A stretch of 36,222 nucleotides of DNA, from NCBI GenBank assembly GCA_938091335.1, contig CALLJG010000015.1:1-36222 (forward strand), given 5' to 3'. This document shows positions 26,310 through 35,334 of the stretch, piece after piece. The translations under genes were made by a program, and so were the position numbers. The stretch's first letter is position 1, and the number at the start of each line of letters is the position of its first letter. Below the pieces are notes generated by a model. The model worked only from the letters and a program-made list of their open reading frames with translations. It made no database searches and was not told the origin of the DNA. Origin of the DNA: an uncultured Thermodesulfobacterium sp. (GTDB lineage: Bacteria > Desulfobacterota > Thermodesulfobacteria > Thermodesulfobacteriales > Thermodesulfobacteriaceae).

Positions 26310-26670
26310 TTATATAAATGTAATTCCTTTAGTTGATATAATGCTTGTTTTATTAACTATTGTTCTTATAACTGCCACCTTTATTGTAGAAGGAACTATC
26401 CCTATTAAACTTCCTACCTCAATTTATGGAGATACTAAAAATATAAAGGGTATCCAAATAACTATAAATAAAAATGAAGAAATATTTTTTGAAGGTAGAA
26501 AAGTGGATTTAAATATATTAGACCAAATAGTTAAAAATATAAATAAAGATTCTCAAATCTCTATTTTTGCAGATAAATCCTCCAAAGTTCAAAGTTTAGT
26601 ATCAGTGCTTGATATCTTAAAAAAGAATGAATTTAAAAAAGTTTTTATAAAAACAGAGTTAATAAAATGA
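26290..26670 (+). CDS. exbD: ExbD/TolR-type biopolymer transport protein
   Basis: ExbD is the single-span partner of ExbB. The 126-residue product has a short cytoplasmic N-terminus, one membrane helix (about 11-33) with the essential Asp16 in NVIPLVDIMLVLL, and a periplasmic domain of about 90 residues. Length is typical. The start lies inside exbB and the stop overlaps tonB by 4 bases (ATGA), so the three genes are translationally coupled. Confidence 0.9.
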   Translation: MEEKEFDYINVIPLVDIMLVLLTIVLITATFIVEGTIPIKLPTSIYGDTKNIKGIQITINKNEEIFFEGRKVDLNILDQIVKNINKDSQISIFADKSSKVQSLVSVLDILKKNEFKKVFIKTELIK

Positions 26671-27431: not shown

Positions 27432-27509
27432 AATACTTCTTTGGTTACTTTTCATATTATTCCTGTTTGCAAAATTTATCTTGAGTTTACTCAAAGCACA
27501 CTTTATCCT

Positions 27510-27542
27510 GCTCTCTTCTATCCATATTTAGAGAGCTTTTTT
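27510..27542 (+). terminator. Intrinsic terminator after tonB
   Basis: GCTCTCT (27510-27516) pairs perfectly with AGAGAGC (27530-27536) across a 13-base loop and is followed by six T. It lies about 80 bases after the tonB stop. The stem is short but is the most GC-rich inverted repeat nearby. Confidence 0.6.
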
Positions 27543-27664
27543 ACAATGTAAAAGATGAAAAAAAGAACTTTTTTTTGCAGAAAAAAAGAGTAAATTAATA
27601 AAAAAAGGTCTTTGAAAAATTAAACTTTTTTCCTTAATTATTAAGAGTTTTAAAGAATTTTGCT

Positions 27665-27701
27665 GTTTCAGACCAACTTCCATTAAAACAAGAATTGAAA
27701 T
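27665..27701 (+). repeat. Solo CRISPR-type repeat, copy A
   Basis: This 37-base unit begins GTTTCAGACC and ends AGAATTGAAAT. It matches copies B and C at 35 of 37 positions; both differences are in the last 10 bases. The GTTTC start and ATTGAAA(C) end are typical of type I/III CRISPR repeats. No second repeat is found at spacer distance on either side. The fprA homology begins within its last bases, so the differences could be native fprA sequence or 3' decay as in terminal repeats. The flank TTTGCT before it is shared with copy B. Confidence 0.75.
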
Positions 27702-28885
27702 TAAAGAAAATTTTTACTGGGTGGGTGCCATCGATTGGAATGTAAGGAATTTTCATGGATATTCTACCTTTAGAGGTACAACCTATAATGCTTATCTTCT
27801 CATAGATGAAAAGATTACCCTTTTTGATACTCTCAAGCATGGCTTTGAAGAAGAACTATTAAATAGAATTAGTTCGAAAATTAGTCCAGAAAAATAAATT
27901 ATTTGGTAATAAATCACATTGAGCCAGATCATGCTGAAGCCTTTGCAAGGATAGTTGAGGTAATTAAACCTGAAAAGATTTTTCTTACTAAAAGTGCTAA
28001 AACTGGCCTTATTTCTCATTTCCACAGAGAGGACTATCCCTTTATTGAAGTTAAAACAGGTGATGAGATTAAAATTGGCAATAGAACTATAAAATTTATT
28101 GAAACACCTATGATTCACTGGCCTGATAGTATGATGAATTATATAGTTAAAGGAAAAATTTTAGTCTCTCAGGATGCCTTTGGAGCACACTATGCAACGA
28201 GTAGAAGATTTGATGATGAAGTAGATACTTGTGAATTAATTCAGGAAGCAGCTAAGTACTATGCTAACATTGTCTACCCCTATTCACCTCAAGTAAATAA
28301 ACTTTTGCAAACTGTAAAACAAATGGGATTGCAAATAGAGATGATTTGTCCTGACCATGGGGTGATTTGGAGAAAGGAGCCCGAGAAAATTATTTCTCTA
28401 TATGAAAGATGGAGCTCCTATACCTGTAATCTCAGAGTTTTAATTATTTTATGATACTATGTGGAAAAGCACAGGAAAAAATGGCTTATGCCATTATGTA
28501 AGGAGTGATTTAGGAAGGGGTAGAAGTAAAATTATGTACACTCTCTGTAGCAGATATGACCGATTTAATGAGAGATGTTTTGGAGGCAAAGGGAATTGTT
28601 TTAGGATCTCCTACTTTGAATAATGGTTTACTCCCTACTGTGGCTGGTTTCTTACAGTATATGAAAGGGCTCAGACCCAAGGGAAAAATTGGGGCTGCCT
28701 TTGGTTCCTATGGATGGAGTGGAGAGGCAGTAAAGTTTCTTTTGCAATATCTTCAGGAAATTCAGGCAGAGATTGTAGGTGAAGTAATTAGAACCAAGTA
28801 TGTCCCCGATAAGAAAGTAATAGAAGAGTGTATAGAACTTGGTAGAAAAGTAGCTCAACGAGTGAGAGAGGCTTGCTTTGTTTAA
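27694..28885 (+). pseudogene. fprA: A-type flavoprotein FprA (O2/NO reductase), 5'-truncated and frameshifted
   Basis: FprA-type flavodiiron proteins reduce oxygen or nitric oxide in anaerobes. Homology starts at IEIKENFYWVGAIDWNV, abutting solo repeat A, and no start codon remains. The beta-lactamase-like di-iron domain shows INHIEPDHAEAF and later CPDHG; the flavodoxin domain shows GSPTLNNG and GAAFGSYGWSGEAVK. Lesions: loss of one A in a run at 27890-27894, an extra T near 28450, an extra G near 28473, and in-frame stops at 28499 (TAA) and 28511 (TAG). A functional product is not expected. Open parts run 27903-28454 and 28556-28885. Confidence 0.88.
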
Positions 28886-29585
28886 AAAGGGAACCTATCT
28901 TAAAAATACTATTTGGAAAATTTTAGAAAATGTTCCTCTTGAGGGCTTAGAGGCTGCTCTAAGCCCCTATTCCCCAAGTAAGTGCATTAGTTTCCTCATT
29001 GGTGCCTTTTTGCATCCCAGGGAAGAGGTGCGTTGGAAGGCCATTTACGCCTTTGGTCTCATTTTGAATAAAGTGGCTGAAGAGGATTTAGAAAAGGCTC
29101 GTATCGTGATAAGAAGGCTTATGTGGATGTTAAATGAAGAATCAGGAGGAATGGCCTGGGGAGTAGGAGAGGGATTTGCAGAGGCTTTATACCGCACAGA
29201 AGCCCTTAAAAAGGAATATCTTCAAATTTATCTTTCCTATATATGGCCTGAAGGTAATTATTTAGAATTTCCACCAGCACAAAGAGGAATCCTGTGGGGT
29301 GTAGGAAGACTTGCTCAGAAATATAGAGAGGACCTTCTTAAATTATCAGCACACGAATATCTTATCTTTCATCTGACTTCTATAGACCCGGTAGTGGTCT
29401 TCTTCTCTCTATGGAGTCTTTCTTATTTCAAGGAGGCTATTCCTATAGAGAGAAATTTACTGAGTAGAGCTTTTCAGTTCTTGGAGAAAAATAGGACAAG
29501 TGTGCTTTTTCTTGATGGAAAAGAGATAAAGGTTCTAAGTTTTGAAGACTTAAAAAAACTCTATTTCAGACATTTATTCTCTTAA
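28878..29585 (+). CDS. DVU0298-like HEAT-repeat protein
   Basis: The 235-residue product is helical throughout. Segments such as REEVRWKAIYAFGLIL, MLNEESGGMAWGVGEGFAEA and PAQRGILWGVGRLAQ look like HEAT-type repeat units and resemble the DVU0298 family of sulfate-reducing bacteria, whose role is unknown; this match is from memory. It starts with TTG, overlapping the end of the fprA pseudogene by 8 bases, which suggests an old operon. It is uninterrupted, unlike its neighbours. Base composition is somewhat richer in G and C than the ribosomal block. Confidence 0.7.
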   Translation: MFKKGTYLKNTIWKILENVPLEGLEAALSPYSPSKCISFLIGAFLHPREEVRWKAIYAFGLILNKVAEEDLEKARIVIRRLMWMLNEESGGMAWGVGEGFAEALYRTEALKKEYLQIYLSYIWPEGNYLEFPPAQRGILWGVGRLAQKYREDLLKLSAHEYLIFHLTSIDPVVVFFSLWSLSYFKEAIPIERNLLSRAFQFLEKNRTSVLFLDGKEIKVLSFEDLKKLYFRHLFS

Positions 29586-29803
29586 CTCTTAGTCTCTACA
29601 TTTTTAAACCCTTTGGACGAGTCTGTGGTTAATATATTAAAAGGCCCACTTAATTACTATTTTGAAATGTCACATATGTGAAAGAACTTCTTTTCAATTC
29701 CATTATATCCATTTGCACTCTGCATAAGCAACTGCAATACTTATTAACAAAATTTAATAATGTAGTAAAATGTGGTGAATACAAAAAGTTATAAAAACTT
29801 TTA

Positions 29804-30106
29804 GTAATCATTCCTACTCTCCAATATACAGTTTTAGCTATGAGTTTAAGTTTAAGGGGTGAAGGTGAGACACTGATTTTATCAGAAATTCTTAGGGGAA
29901 CACTAAAATCAAAAAGATTATTAGGAATAATTACTTTAATTACCTTCATAGCGCTCTCTCTACTTATTGGAGATGGAGTTATCACCCCTGCTATAAGTAT
30001 TTTAAGTGCAGTAGAGGGAATTTCTTTGATCCCTCAATTACCAGCCCTCTCAGAAAGTTATATAGTTTTTATTAGTATCTTTACAGCAACCCTATTATTT
30101 GCTGTT
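29804..30106 (+). pseudogene. kup: Kup-type potassium uptake protein, internal fragment
   Basis: About 100 codons match the early membrane part of Kup/HAK potassium transporters: IIPTLQYTVLAMSLSLRGEG, then LLIGDGVITPAISILSAVEG. A complete Kup is over 600 residues. The 5' part is missing with no clear cause, and the homology stops at LLFAV exactly where solo repeat B begins. The reading frame continues through the repeat to 30211 but that part is not Kup. It cannot encode a working transporter. Confidence 0.85.
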
Positions 30107-30140
30107 TCAGACCAACTTCCATTAAAACAAGGATTGAAAC
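30104..30140 (+). repeat. Solo CRISPR-type repeat, copy B
   Basis: The 37-base unit begins GTTTCAGACC and ends GGATTGAAAC, identical to copy C. It truncates the kup fragment: kup sequence stops at its left edge and unrelated AT-rich DNA follows. No second repeat occurs within 100 bases. Orientation is the same as copies A and C. Confidence 0.8.
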
Positions 30141-30508
30141 ATAATAAAAAACTTAAACACATCAAAGCCAAAATAAAATACCTTAACACACTTAATCTTC
30201 TCATAACCTAACCTCCTCTAAGAAGTATTTCACATCCTTCTATAACCTAATCTCACAAACATTTTAAACCACCCCTTACTTTATCATCTCATTTCTATTA
30301 TACAAAGAATGTAGTTATATGATGTAGTTATGTGACATCCTGATACAAATAATTTCAATCATAAGATGATGGGATATTTAATATAGCATAACACTAAAAA
30401 TGCGCATAGAGGACCAGAAAGTAGAAAAAACTTTAGCCTTGAAATTGTGAAATGTATTAAAAGATTTGGTCTTGATATTTTAAACCTAAAAGGATTTTCT
30501 ATAAATGT
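30141..30508. other. AT-rich stretch without recognisable gene
   Basis: No convincing coding sequence was found on either strand. A 13-base near-perfect tandem repeat lies at 30309-30334 (ATGTAGTTATATG then ATGTAGTTATGTG). A 42-codon open stretch (about 30390-30510) with an Arg/Lys-rich translation could be a relic of some gene but matches nothing I recognise. The segment separates solo repeat B from the promoter of the permease gene. Confidence 0.5.
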
Positions 30509-30537
30509 TTGACAAATATTTTACTTTTTTGTAAAAT
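30509..30537 (+). promoter_or_regulatory. Promoter of the TSUP permease gene
   Basis: A perfect -35 box TTGACA (30509-30514), a 17-base spacer and TAAAAT (30532-30537) form a near-consensus sigma70-type promoter. The start would be near 30544, giving a leader of about 150 bases before the ATG at 30694. No riboswitch-like fold was recognised in it. Confidence 0.65.
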
Positions 30538-30693
30538 AGTCAAATTACCTTAAAACTATGTGCAATTTTGTGTAAGTTTTGATTGGAATGCTATTTGTTA
30601 TGCTTTTGCTAATTGAAACTGATGGGAAAAATAAAAAAGGTTTATTCTATTCCTCCTAGTTATTTAAAAATAGATTTTGCTAAGGAGAATAAT

Positions 30694-31431
30694 ATGAGTG
30701 AATATTTTGTTATTATCCCAGGTTTATTTATTCTTGCAATTGTATCAGGAATGTTGGGTCTTGGGGTTGCTTTTGCTTCCGTTCCTTTTTTAGGACTTTT
30801 CTTTTCTGATCTTGTGCATCAGGTCCAGCCTATTAGCCTTTTGCTTAATGGGATAACTGCAATGTTTTGTGTATTTGGATTTGCAAAGAGTAGTTTTATA
30901 AACTGGAGAAAAGCAATTATGTTAGCAATAGTGACTACTTTTTTTGCGCCTGTTGGTTCATATCTGGCTCAATTTGTGAACCAGGTCTATATATGGTATG
31001 TCTATTTTATATCTGTGGCTTATTTGGCATACAGGATATTTAAACCTGTGAAAAGAAAAACTGGTGAGGGTAATTTTAGATTGGTGATCATTCTTGCTAT
31101 ACCTATTTCTGTTTTAAGCGGATTTTTGGGTGTCGGACCTGGGTTTTTACTTATGCCTACTCTTATAGTTGCAGGTTTTGAGCCAAAAATGGCAGCTGGA
31201 ATAAATGCCTTTGCGGTATGCCCTCCTTCTTTTTCAGCTTTGATTCCACATCTATCTACTGCTTACTGGGATACTAATTTAATGATCCCTCTTATTGTAG
31301 TAGGCGCCATAGGATCTTTTATTGGAGCAAGAATAACGAGTTTATACTTGCCTGGTAAAAAGATTAAACGGCTTTTTGGAATACTTATGGTAGTTGTAAC
31401 GCTCTATAAAATTTATACATTGATGAGATAA
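30694..31431 (+). CDS. TSUP family (TauE/SafE) membrane permease
   Basis: This family moves sulfur-containing or small organic anions across the inner membrane; the substrate here is unknown. The 245-residue protein has about seven or eight hydrophobic segments and the two family repeats, each with a Gly-rich motif: GMLGLGVAFASVPFLGLFF near the N-terminus and GFLGVGPGFLLMPTLIVAGF near residues 145-165. ATG 30694 is chosen because AAGGAG lies 7 bases upstream; an in-frame TTG at 30613 is less likely. It is intact, between two pseudogenes. An uptake or export role in sulfur metabolism would suit the organism but is inference. Confidence 0.85.
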   Translation: MSEYFVIIPGLFILAIVSGMLGLGVAFASVPFLGLFFSDLVHQVQPISLLLNGITAMFCVFGFAKSSFINWRKAIMLAIVTTFFAPVGSYLAQFVNQVYIWYVYFISVAYLAYRIFKPVKRKTGEGNFRLVIILAIPISVLSGFLGVGPGFLLMPTLIVAGFEPKMAAGINAFAVCPPSFSALIPHLSTAYWDTNLMIPLIVVGAIGSFIGARITSLYLPGKKIKRLFGILMVVVTLYKIYTLMR

Positions 31432-31439
31432 AAAGATTT

Positions 31440-32183
31440 CAGAATTTCATGATAACCTTCAATTTTAAAATTTAGAGGATCAATTATGGCTTTAGTGTCA
31501 ACTTTTTCTAATTCTGGTATATCTCTCCTTATATATTTTCCTTGAGGGTCAAACTTTTTTAGCTTGAAGTATCGGGTTGAAGATCCTTAAAGGTTTTGGG
31601 TCAGCTCCTACAGAAACAACCTATTGCCAATTCCAACATTTACTACCTCATCATAATCTATCAAATATTTGGAGAAGAATTCCTCACCTATTCTCCAATC
31701 AATGAGTAGATCTTTTGTTAGGAAAGAACCAACTATCGTTCTTGCTCTATTATGCATCTAATTTTCTTGTTTTAGTTGTCTTATAGCGGCGTCTACTATT
31801 GGATATTCGGTCTCTCCTTTTTTAAACTTGTCAATGAGTTTTTCATCTTTTAACCACTTTAAATTTCTTCTTCTCTCTTGAAATTCTAAGCTTTTCATCT
31901 CTGGGAAATAGGTTTAATATGATACCAAAACTCCCTCCATGCTAACTCTTTTATAAAGTTATTGTCTAATTTTTTAGCAATCTCATAAAGTTTTCTTATG
32001 GAGATTACTCCAAATCTTATGTAAGGAGAAAGTCTTGATGAGCGTCTTTATCTAAATCATTTCTAAGTTTTGAGTAGTTTCTAAAATCAAAATTTTTTAG
32101 TCTATAAATCCAAAAAGTCTAAACTCCAATAGAAATTCTTTGATGGTATTAACTTTTCAATATTTTGAGGAAGGGCAAATCTT
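31440..32183 (-). pseudogene. phr: Deoxyribodipyrimidine photolyase, truncated and degenerate
   Basis: Photolyase repairs UV dimers with FAD and light. In several frames of the minus strand the C-terminal half is clear: LSPYIRFGVISIRKLYEIA, ELAWREFWYHIK, then TEYPIVDAAIRQLKQEN, then [20 protein letters not shown], and the end FDPQGKYIRRDIPELEK. The Trp of the usual WMHNR motif is a TAG stop (31758-31760). Further frameshifts and stops occur in the KPISQR region and after NVGIGNR. The N-terminal half is absent: homology ends where solo repeat C starts. It faces the TSUP gene convergently. Confidence 0.88.
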
Positions 32184-32220
32184 GTTTCAGACCAACTTCC
32201 ATTAAAACAAGGATTGAAAC
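32184..32220 (+). repeat. Solo CRISPR-type repeat, copy C
   Basis: This unit is identical to copy B over all 37 bases, beginning GTTTCAGACC and ending GGATTGAAAC. It cuts the photolyase gene on its left. On its right, 82 bases of AT-rich DNA lead to the first mntA. A short GTTTCA at 32244 is too close and too short to be a second repeat. Confidence 0.8.
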
Positions 32221-32302
32221 TAATTATCAATGCAAAAGTTTTTGTTTCAAAAGATGGAAAAAAGAGAAGTGATTTTATCTTTTTATTTAACTTGAGAAAG
32301 AA

Positions 32303-32607
32303 ATGAGTAAAAAGGTAGAAACATTAGAAGAAATAAAAAGTATTTTGAAGAAACTTAAGCCAGAACTTGAGCAAAAATATAAAATTAAAGAAATCGGTAT
32401 ATTTGGTTCCTGGGTTAAAGAAAAGCAGAAGAAAAAAAGCAATATTGATATACTTGTTGATTTTTATAAAAAACCAGACTTATTTACTTTTATTGAGATA
32501 GAGGACTTTTTATCCAGAAAATTGAAAAGGAAAGTGGATCTGGTTCTGAAATCCGTTTAAAACCCTTTATAGAAAAAATAATCCTAAGAGAAACGATTTA
32601 TATATGA
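32303..32607 (+). pseudogene. mntA: MNT-type nucleotidyltransferase antitoxin (MntA-like), frameshifted
   Basis: MntA-type antitoxins neutralise HEPN toxins, in known cases by adding AMP to the toxin. The 85-codon open part has the GS motif (Gly35-Ser36) and SNIDIL. The first catalytic Asp of the usual DxD is Asn47 here. The expected C-terminus continues in another frame after VDLVLKS ([16 protein letters not shown]) once one base is added near 32556. In that frame the stop at 32605 overlaps the hepT start as ATGA, the normal layout. Both the frame loss and the Asp-to-Asn change argue against activity. Confidence 0.8.
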
Positions 32608-32933
32608 GGGAATTTAGGGATTATCTTTATTATATAAAAAACGAATGCGAGTATCTTATTGATGAATTTATTTAAAACGAAGAATTCAAAAGAGCATTTG
32701 TGAGAAGTTTAGAAATAATTGGAGAAGCAAGCAAAAAGATACCACAGGATGTGAGGATAGGATATCCAGGGATAAAATGGAAAAGTATTATAAGAATGAG
32801 AAATAAAATAATACATGAATATTTTAGGGTTGATTATGAAATTGTCTGGGAGGTAGTGAAAGAAAGAATCCCTGAGCTTTATAATGGTATCCAGAAAATC
32901 ATTGAGGAGATGAACAAAAATAAAAATGGATAG
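32604..32933 (+). pseudogene. hepT: HEPN-family toxin (HepT-like) with internal stop
   Basis: HepT proteins are HEPN ribonucleases. The gene starts with ATG overlapping the restored mntA stop, but codon 24 is TAA (32673-32675) where the family has a continuous helix. After the stop the rest is intact, including IIGEASKKIP and the RNKIIHEYF segment that carries the RX4HXY motif. Translation restart at GTG 32700 would give a 77-residue product lacking the first helices; whether that is made or active is unknown. Confidence 0.8.
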
Positions 32934-33126
32934 AAACGAGGTAAAAAGATCAATAATTCAAGCATTTAAAAATTCTTAAAATAAAAGGATTTTGTTTTAT
33001 AAAAATGAAAGTAAAAAATGATATTTTAGCATTTATAATCATAAAAATATTTCTTTTAGAAAAAACTCAAATTTTTGGATTTTAGGATATTTGATTTTTA
33101 TATTTTTTATGGTTTATAATTTGGAT

Positions 33127-34678
33127 ATGAAAAAAGAAAAAGACATAAATTTTGAAGATAAACTCTGGAAGGCAGCAGATAAACTAAGAAAAAAAATTGA
33201 GGTTCATGAATATAAATATGTTGTACTTGGTTTAATATTTTTAAGATATATTTCTTATGCTTTTGAAGAAAGAAGAAAGGAATTGGAAAAAAAGTTTACT
33301 AATAAAGTCTCCGAAGATTTTATTCCTTATGAGAATATAAGAAAGGAAGCACTAGAAGATAAAGATAGATATCTTTCAGAGGGGATTCTTTATGTTCCAG
33401 AAAAGGCAAGATGGGATTATCTTGTTAAGAATGCAAATCAAACAAATATTGGAGAGATTATTGATAAGGCAATAGAACTGCTTGAGGAAGAATATCCAAG
33501 GCAGTTAAAGGATGTTATTCCTAAGATATATACAAGCATAAACCTTGACCCTGGTGACCTTGCTTATCTCATAAATCTCTTCACTCCTATAGATTTTGGA
33601 TATGACCATAAAGGAAAAGACATATTTGGCAGAATTTATGAGTATTTTCTTGGTAAGTTTGCTGAGGCAGAGGGTAGAAGGGGTGGCGAGTTCTATACCC
33701 CAAGATCGCTTACAAAACTCATCGTTTCAATTCTTGATATAAAAGGGGGAAGGATTTTTGACCCTGCTTGTGGCTCGGGAGGGTTTTTTATAGCAGCTCT
33801 TGAGAAATTAGAAAGAGAGGGGATTGACAAAAATAAACTTACTATCTATGGACAGGAATCAAAGGAGACACCGTGGCAGATATGCAAAATGAATCTTACC
33901 TTAAGAGGTGCAGAAGGAGATATTAGAATTGGTGATTCTTATCATGACGATAAATTCTTTGATTTAAGAGCAGATTATGTTGTTTCAAATCCCCCATTTA
34001 ATGATAGTGGATGGGGAGCAGATAGAATAACTTATAATGATCCAAGATTTAGATATGGAATTCCGCCAGATAATAATGGCAATTATGCATGGATACAGCA
34101 TTATATTTATCATCTGGCTCCTTCGGGTAAAGCAGGTTTTGTTATGGCAAATGGGGCTTTATCTGTTGGTGGAGTAGAAGGAGAGATTAGAAGGAAGATT
34201 ATTGAAGATGATCTTGTATATGGAATTGTAGCTTGTCCTCCCAAGCTTTTTTATAATGTCTCTTTGCCGGTTTCCCTTTGGTTTTTAAGAAAGTCAAAAC
34301 CAAATCATATGAAAGCTAAAGTTTTATTTATTTATGCGAAAAAGATGTATAAACAAATTTCAAGAAGACAAGTCATTTTTACGGAAGAACATATTGAAAA
34401 AAATTGTTGAGAAATTTAGGATGTTTGAAAATGGGGAGTCGGAAGAAAAAATAAACGAAATTGGCTTTGCAAAAGTGGCAGATTTAAAGGAGATTGAAAA
34501 GAATGGCTTTGTTTTAACTCCTGGAAGATATGTTGGAATAAAAATTGAAGAAGATGAAATCCCCTTTGAAGAAAAAATGAAAAGTTATTCTCAAGAGTTA
34601 TCAAAACTATTAAAAGAGGAAGAAGAGCTTACCCAAAAAGTCAAAGAAGTTTTTAAAGCTTTGAATTTTAAGATTTAG
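33127..34678 (+). pseudogene. hsdM: Type I restriction-modification DNA methyltransferase HsdM, interrupted by +1 frameshift
   Basis: HsdM methylates adenine in the recognition site with HsdS. The start is taken at ATG 33127 (MKKEKDINFEDKLWKAADKL), the usual N-terminus; an upstream in-frame ATG at 33091 adds a hydrophobic stretch not typical of the family. EFYTPR is at 188-193, the SAM-binding DPACGSGGF at 212-220 and the catalytic NPPF at 288-291. The frame shifts in an A7 run (34397-34403): with six A it would continue as EKIVEKFRMFENG to the stop at 34678, about 517 residues in all. As read, it stops at 34410, after both catalytic motifs. Slippage, phase variation or a sequencing error are all possible. 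Confidence 0.9.
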
Positions 34679-34694
34679 AAACTATGGCGAGGTA

Positions 34695-34994
34695 ATGGCA
34701 ATGAATATAGAAGAAATCAAAAGGAAAATCAGCGAGAAGAGGAATTTTTTGCAGGATAAATACAAGGTGAAAGGTATAGCAATATTTGGTTCAAGGGCAA
34801 GAGAAGAGGAAAGGGAAGGAAGCGATGTTGATATAATTCTGGAATTTTCAGAGCCCATTGGCTGGGAAATTGTGGAGATAAAGGAATATCTGGAATCACT
34901 ACTCGGTTTAAAAGTGGATATTTTGACTTACAAAGCAGTTTTGAGAAAACCCTCCCTATGGGATTCCATCAAAGAGGATTTAATTTATGTCTAA
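34695..34994 (+). CDS. mntA: MNT-type nucleotidyltransferase antitoxin (MntA-like)
   Basis: This is an intact minimal nucleotidyltransferase of 99 residues. The motif GSRAREEEREGSDVD places Gly32-Ser33, then Asp44 and Asp46 at the exact family spacing. Known MntA antitoxins add AMP to a Tyr of their HepT partner. It begins 16 bases after the hsdM end and overlaps hepT by 8 bases. GAGG precedes the ATG; a second ATG two codons later is an alternative. Confidence 0.88.
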   Translation: MAMNIEEIKRKISEKRNFLQDKYKVKGIAIFGSRAREEEREGSDVDIILEFSEPIGWEIVEIKEYLESLLGLKVDILTYKAVLRKPSLWDSIKEDLIYV

Positions 34995-35334
34995 AAGAGA
35001 ACCAAAATTTTTAATAGAAGATATGATTACCGCAATTAAAAAGATAGAAAAATATACACAGGGGATAAGTTCATTAGAGGAATTTGAAAGAAGTGATATT
35101 ATCTCAGATGCAGTAATTAGGAATTTAGAAATCATAGGTGAAGCTGCAAGTAAACTTTCCAACGAAATACAACAAAAATATTCAGATATTCCCTGGAAGA
35201 ACATTATAGGTTTAAGAAATGTAGTAATACATGGTTATTTTGTAGTTGACTTAGAGATAATATGGAAAATCATTAAAGACCAGCTCCCGTGGTTAAAGGA
35301 AAGATTAGAGATAATCTGGAATGAAATAAAATGA
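34987..35334 (+). CDS. hepT: HEPN-family ribonuclease toxin (HepT-like)
   Basis: This 115-residue helical protein is the partner of the preceding mntA. The RX4HXY motif is intact: Arg77, His82 and Tyr84 in RNVVIHGYF; in studied pairs the Tyr is the AMP acceptor. The IIGEAASKLS segment is typical of the family. Its stop overlaps the start of an hsdS-like relic (ATGA). Placement inside an hsd operon recalls PrrC, a HEPN-type anticodon nuclease guarded by a type I restriction system in E. coli; a similar role here is inference. Confidence 0.87.
   Translation: MSKREPKFLIEDMITAIKKIEKYTQGISSLEEFERSDIISDAVIRNLEIIGEAASKLSNEIQQKYSDIPWKNIIGLRNVVIHGYFVVDLEIIWKIIKDQLPWLKERLEIIWNEIK

Follow-up and report, generated by a model that had tools for sequence, protein, structure and literature searches.

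Three CRISPR repeats parted by gene-sized DNA in an uncultured Thermodesulfobacterium: candidate relic of a single locus

Several described systems resemble in part the locus examined here, in which three single copies (R1 to R3) of a 37-base sequence like those of clustered regularly interspaced short palindromic repeats (CRISPR) are separated by gene-bearing DNA. The window is the entire contig C15 (36,222 nucleotides) of a 17-contig, 1.39-Mb, 92% complete assembly of an uncultured Thermodesulfobacterium sp., and it has no N gaps. Orphan or relic CRISPR arrays share with this locus a CRISPR repeat, a leader-like flank and the lack of cas1 in the assembly, but here kilobase-long DNA with genes, not spacers of about 36 nt, lies between single repeats. 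Varble is said to have described in 2021 the integration of prophages into CRISPR loci, which also places large DNA within such a locus; here, however, the nine window open reading frames (ORFs) scanned against Pfam include no recognised integrase or phage gene. An insertion sequence (IS) in an array of a relative (G010, L148) likewise leaves 1.5 kb between two repeats, but that gap holds what we take to be an IS110-type transposase, and none was seen in the blocks of the window. Recombination of a spacer with its target fuses incoming DNA to a CRISPR locus where a spacer would sit, as may have happened here; the reported cases involve phages (PMC8616872), whereas in the window ordinary chromosomal genes of a relative are involved, at both ends of a block. 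Solitary repeat units that act as RNA anti-CRISPRs (Racr) are also lone repeat copies without adjoining cas genes, but those reported are carried by viruses and plasmids, in many cases with a predicted promoter immediately upstream (PMC10651486).

Repeats, leader-like flank and blocks

With moderate confidence, the arrangement is read here as the relic of one CRISPR locus, in the order leader, R1, block A, R2, block B and R3, in which gene-sized DNA was probably joined at the repeats by recombination. The sequence GTTTCAGACCAACTTCCATTAAAACAAGGATTGAAAC is present exactly (37/37) at R2 (30104-30140) and R3 (32184-32220) and at 35 of 37 positions at R1 (27665-27701), where both mismatches lie in the 3' end; all copies are on the + strand, and five of their six ends are intact. 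R2 and R3 each match the Rfam model CRISPR-DR7 (RF01320) at 40.6 bits, whereas R1, at 25.5 bits, falls short of the gathering score of 37. An earlier note on this DNA had described three copies in one orientation, about 2.4 and 2.1 kb apart, and no array. Coordinates, strand and Rfam match agree with that description: the copies are direct repeats of a known family, at spacings of 2439 and 2080 bp rather than those of regular short spacers (about 25-50 nt). The genome-wide search for the 37-mer that the note had proposed returned only these three copies at ≤3 mismatches, and an exact 25-mer search likewise found no other in the assembly. The next-best places in the window have 14 mismatches in 37, the nearest at 26335.

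The A+T-rich 5' flank of R1 (27432-27664, +) resembles a CRISPR leader. It contains TCTTTGAAAA at 27609, the single occurrence in the window of the motif TCTTTGAMAA, which is missing from the flanks of R2 and R3. The motif, picked after inspecting leaders, is present in 8 of 22 listed arrays within the 150 nt that lead up to the first repeat, at -14 to -132 (array L161, whose leader is cut off, was omitted), and in 0.3% of random 150-mers; for arrays of the own family the proportion is 8/15, several of these being close homologues. This evidence is supportive, short of conclusive. Cas1, the cas gene sought genome-wide, gave no match in the whole assembly, and is present in 17 of 30 genomes of the family. 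The earlier statement that the window lacks a cas gene agrees with the Pfam scan, in which none of the nine ORFs matched a cas family.

Block A (27702-30103, +) consists of an fprA-like gene, an ORF of 235 aa and part of kup, the gene order of genus g6. The fprA-like flavodiiron pseudogene (27693-28885, +) was recognised by BLASTN to relatives and to contig C5 of the same assembly and by an ODP domain in its longest ORF. Its match to C5 fprA starts at 27693, within the 3' end of R1, with an N-terminal loss of only about 3-5 codons, and the two bases at which R1 differs from R2 and R3 agree with C5 fprA. The interior contains two frameshifts and two stop codons, judged by eye against the C5 protein. 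The 235-aa ORF (28878-29585, +) is intact, has no Pfam match and is conserved beside fprA in relatives. With three kup proteins as tblastn queries, 29801-30103 (+) aligns to residues 48-148 (full length about 598), ending at the base that adjoins R2; under default scoring the alignment runs to 30115, 12 bases into R2, because kup and the start of the repeat resemble each other. The kup fragment is cut at both ends, its first 47 residues also being missing. The bases TTTGCT directly precede both R1 and R2, those before R2 being kup codons; six identical bases before two random window positions have a probability of 0.0009.

At least one of the two blocks, A, looks foreign: sequence comparison shows its genes to be an additional copy of foreign type, the donor being uncertain. 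Its three proteins are closest to those of g6 (73%, 68% and 77% at best). The order fprA-ORF-kup occurs within about 2.4 kb at five named loci (L011-L015), and 6 of 7 g6 genomes, Caldimicrobium-titled records included, have homologues of this ORF and of kup no more than about 1 kb apart. The host assembly also contains an intact fprA on C5, with 75% DNA identity to that of block A, and a kup-like match (67%) on C3. Next to C5 fprA, whose neighbouring ORF is presumably desulfoferrodoxin-like, the DNA match to the 235-aa ORF is limited to 54 bp (L035, 8273-8326), while block A holds this ORF intact. Between the 235-aa ORF and kup lies a 52-bp element (29624-29675) that is dispersed in the family at about 80-92% identity, at many places in genome G029 and several in G014 and others; it is perhaps the remnant of an insertion element or of a miniature inverted-repeat transposable element (MITE).

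Block B (30141-32183) starts with about 470 bp without recognised genes, followed by a TauE/SafE-like transporter ORF (30613-31431, +; PF01925, E 2.2e-33) and a photolyase pseudogene remnant (31431-32161, -). The photolyase homology, found by tblastn, covers residues from about 181 to 431 of 452, with several stops, so that the N-terminal 40% is missing. It ends at 32161, 22 bp before R3, or at 32032 under default scoring. In both relatives that have the two genes (G010 and G014), the matches to TauE and to photolyase are located apart from each other.

The earlier note had placed each repeat at the exact end of homology to a broken gene. The link of the repeats to broken genes stands, but the exactness does not extend to photolyase, whose N-terminal loss is borne out and whose homology stops at least 22 bp short of R3. 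Homology to fprA does begin inside R1, but the supposed loss of its 5' end comes down to a few codons; kup homology does stop at the edge of R2 (30103 or 30115), but its 3' truncation is accompanied by an N-terminal one.

If this is the relic of one locus, blocks A and B would occupy its two spacer positions and would have been joined to the repeats by recombination; adaptation genes may then have been lost while the captured genes decayed. One conceivable route is illegitimate joining, in which short stretches shared by the repeat ends and the incoming DNA would have guided the fusion. Such joining is favoured by the matches at the ends of block A, where fprA resembles the 3' end of the repeat and kup the border of leader and repeat. 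A second is homologous recombination of a spacer with its target in the incoming DNA, a process reported for phages (PMC8616872) that would yield the same anatomy. Insertion of block A inside a spacer was considered and rejected because the block abuts both repeats without spacer remnant; fprA and kup homology both reach the repeats and leave no room. If the junctions are real, CRISPR loci would harbour, besides 36-nt tags of foreign DNA, entire blocks of foreign genes joined to the edge of a repeat, and the locus would be a direct means to study the decay of CRISPR loci and their role in gene transfer between thermophiles.

The repeat and interrupted arrays in other genomes

The Rfam match, together with regular arrays in other genomes of the phylum, indicates that the sequence at R1-R3 is a true CRISPR repeat, though it is unseen in other members of the genus. 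In a phylum sample, 13 of 395 genomes (this one and 12 others) carry the 25-nt 3' part of the repeat at ≤2 mismatches. In 10 of the 12 others it forms arrays with a period of about 73 nt and 3 to 90 matches; the remaining two have two copies 877 bp apart (G057) and one copy (G100). The full repeat at ≤3 mismatches was found in none of 59 relatives of the first sample, and the CRISPR-DR7 model, run with stricter filters, had no match in 41 other genomes. Three partial repeat strings (25-29 letters) had no occurrence in the literature texts searched, and none of the titles and abstract openings on CRISPR-repeat rearrangement, long spacers, interrupted arrays or integration describes such a structure.

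Repeats parted by genes occur in the family, a one-contig genome included; most of the cases are drafts, some of the repeats have degenerated, and one of the gaps is due to an IS. Large gaps were sought in 26 array entries of the fetched stretches (L139 and L187 belong to a single array; L134, whose array the gap script missed, was gap-free by a separate look), and a reversed-repeat control gave 0 matches in 416,050 bases. Five arrays, those of G018, G024, G010, G057 and G007, have gaps free of Ns. G018 is a one-contig genome in which same-strand repeats, with 0 to 7 mismatches in 30, are separated by gaps of 137, 782, 186 and 1602 bp. The 782- and 1602-bp gaps hold ORFs of 202, 157, 66 and 116 aa, one being an RDD protein, and no transposase was found in the three of these four ORFs scanned against Pfam. 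Assembly error is not required for the structure of the window, because same-strand repeats parted by genes are present in this one-contig genome. The gene-bearing gaps of G018 (L182, 8268-10903) sit past its CRISPR array, and its 116-aa ORF resembles, by eye, a 118-aa ORF adjoining a lone repeat of G024 (L133).

The other gaps vary in size and content. G024 has an 832-bp gap with a nucleotidyltransferase-like ORF; in G010 the gap measures 1535 bp and contains a 399-aa ORF, presumably the IS110-type transposase mentioned above. G057, from another family, has a 1692-bp array gap. Between its two lone repeats (L113, 614-1525), which adjoin an array of another repeat type, lie a ParE-like toxin and an ORF resembling an antitoxin. 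In G007 the gap is 3580 bp long, with an antiporter-like fragment and ORFs that we take to be cooS and cooC; a second repeat type surrounds the block, and the contig has N gaps elsewhere. On this contig (C31; L132, 7034-10640) a 3.3-kb block of higher G+C lies between second-type repeats, inside a first-type array, with a G+C of 0.48 versus 0.34. Repeats 780 bp apart also flank a PIN-like ORF in a draft contig of G012.

Alternative explanations

Several observations weigh against a single locus with a foreign block captured by recombination. One kup of the own genus (G006) is also close to that of block A (74%), and the fprA DNA tree, unlike the protein tree, pairs block A with C5 fprA, so that the donor is not fixed. 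Block B has no visible microhomology, its left end showing chance-level matches only. The leader motif is found in 0 of 7 more distant leaders of arrays with a related 37-nt repeat, and the leaders that do have it include the close homologues noted above. In G018 each of the two large gaps has a degenerate repeat on its left, with 5 and 7 mismatches in 30. When the 916 spacer strings of the fetched arrays, or 688 once shifted copies were merged, were compared with 27600-32320, none matched a block end and the matches were no better than weak and short, the best ten having E ≥0.04 and at most 21 bases at 90%.

An assembly or binning artefact, in which contigs of different strains were joined via the repeat or via spacers identical to genes of neighbours, is unlikely. 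The draft state of the assembly allows for it, and the similar 3.6-kb gap of G007 sits in an N-gapped contig and differs in G+C. It would, however, need one contig to run through a single 37-mer three times, with other flanks each time, in a window without Ns, and a comparable structure is present in the one-contig G018; the joining of contigs at repeats, raised in the earlier note, is less needed for that reason. Furthermore, upstream of 27432 the contig shares synteny with the own genus (g1), at 76-78% DNA identity to G004 and G005, which assigns the left part of the contig to the host organism. In G005 there is a tonB-like gene and then other genes.

The three copies might instead descend from separate arrays or repeat insertions, each shrunk to one repeat, with unrelated gene deletions alongside. 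Loss of spacers by recombination between repeats is an ordinary CRISPR process, and the earlier suggestion of arrays collapsed after recombination comes near to the single-locus relic preferred here. Three such arrays are nonetheless improbable, as the leader-like motif at R1 only favours one locus, all copies share one orientation, and kup passes directly into R2, neither leader nor spacer remaining between them. Three independent solo insertions are likewise disfavoured by the single leader-like flank and the common orientation.

Giant spacers are a further candidate: Cas1-Cas2 would have integrated kilobase-long foreign DNA at the leader-proximal repeat, duplicating the repeat each time. 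The order leader-R-A-R-B-R is the expected product, five of six repeat ends are intact, and block A is of foreign type and cut regardless of gene boundaries. However, Cas1-Cas2 is a short-spacer integrase with a length ruler, the altered end of R1 and the shared TTTGCT suggest microhomology, and no Cas1 was matched in the assembly. This account is distinctly improbable, and the related idea of mis-targeted Cas1-Cas2 activity is kept at similarly low probability. The broader proposal that CRISPR loci of these thermophiles capture gene-sized foreign DNA as giant spacers, via the CRISPR integrase or linked repair, and act as a sink and hotspot for horizontally acquired genes, is improbable.

It is very unlikely that the copies are solitary repeat units that belong to mobile elements and act as Racrs. 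Racrs are reported to mimic repeats (PMC10651486). The 22-nt core of the repeat occurs at ≤4 mismatches in 17 viral-contig stretches (L090-L106), 11 of which have a single core copy with variable 5' parts, some of the stretches being short or ending near the match; these single-copy stretches may be solitary repeat units or mini-arrays. No viral contig contained the first 28 bases of the repeat exactly. A weak promoter-like site precedes R1 (27612-27641), but promoter-like sites are rarer in the region than in shuffles (12 versus 18). The three copies stand in tandem order, R2 is fused to the kup reading frame, and none of the nine scanned ORFs is a phage gene.

A mobile unit ending in the repeat, also put forward in the earlier note, is unsupported: no transposase or integrase was found in the four Pfam-scanned ORFs among the seven of ≥80 aa between the copies; the remaining three comprise the 3' part of fprA and two ORFs that overlie fprA and kup on the minus strand. 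A plasmid origin was rejected because PLSDB plasmids had no match to 27600-32350; the repeat alone found one weak plasmid record (Runella, 83%).

Genes downstream of R3

Downstream of R3 lie a nucleotidyltransferase ORF and an N6-methylase ORF. The former is followed by a HEPN-like frame (together 32303-32930), with an in-frame stop near 32673 seen by eye. The N6-methylase (HsdM-like) gene at 33091-34678 has an apparent terminal frameshift near 34400, judged from the ORF list. A second nucleotidyltransferase/HepT-like pair, at 34695-35334, is intact.

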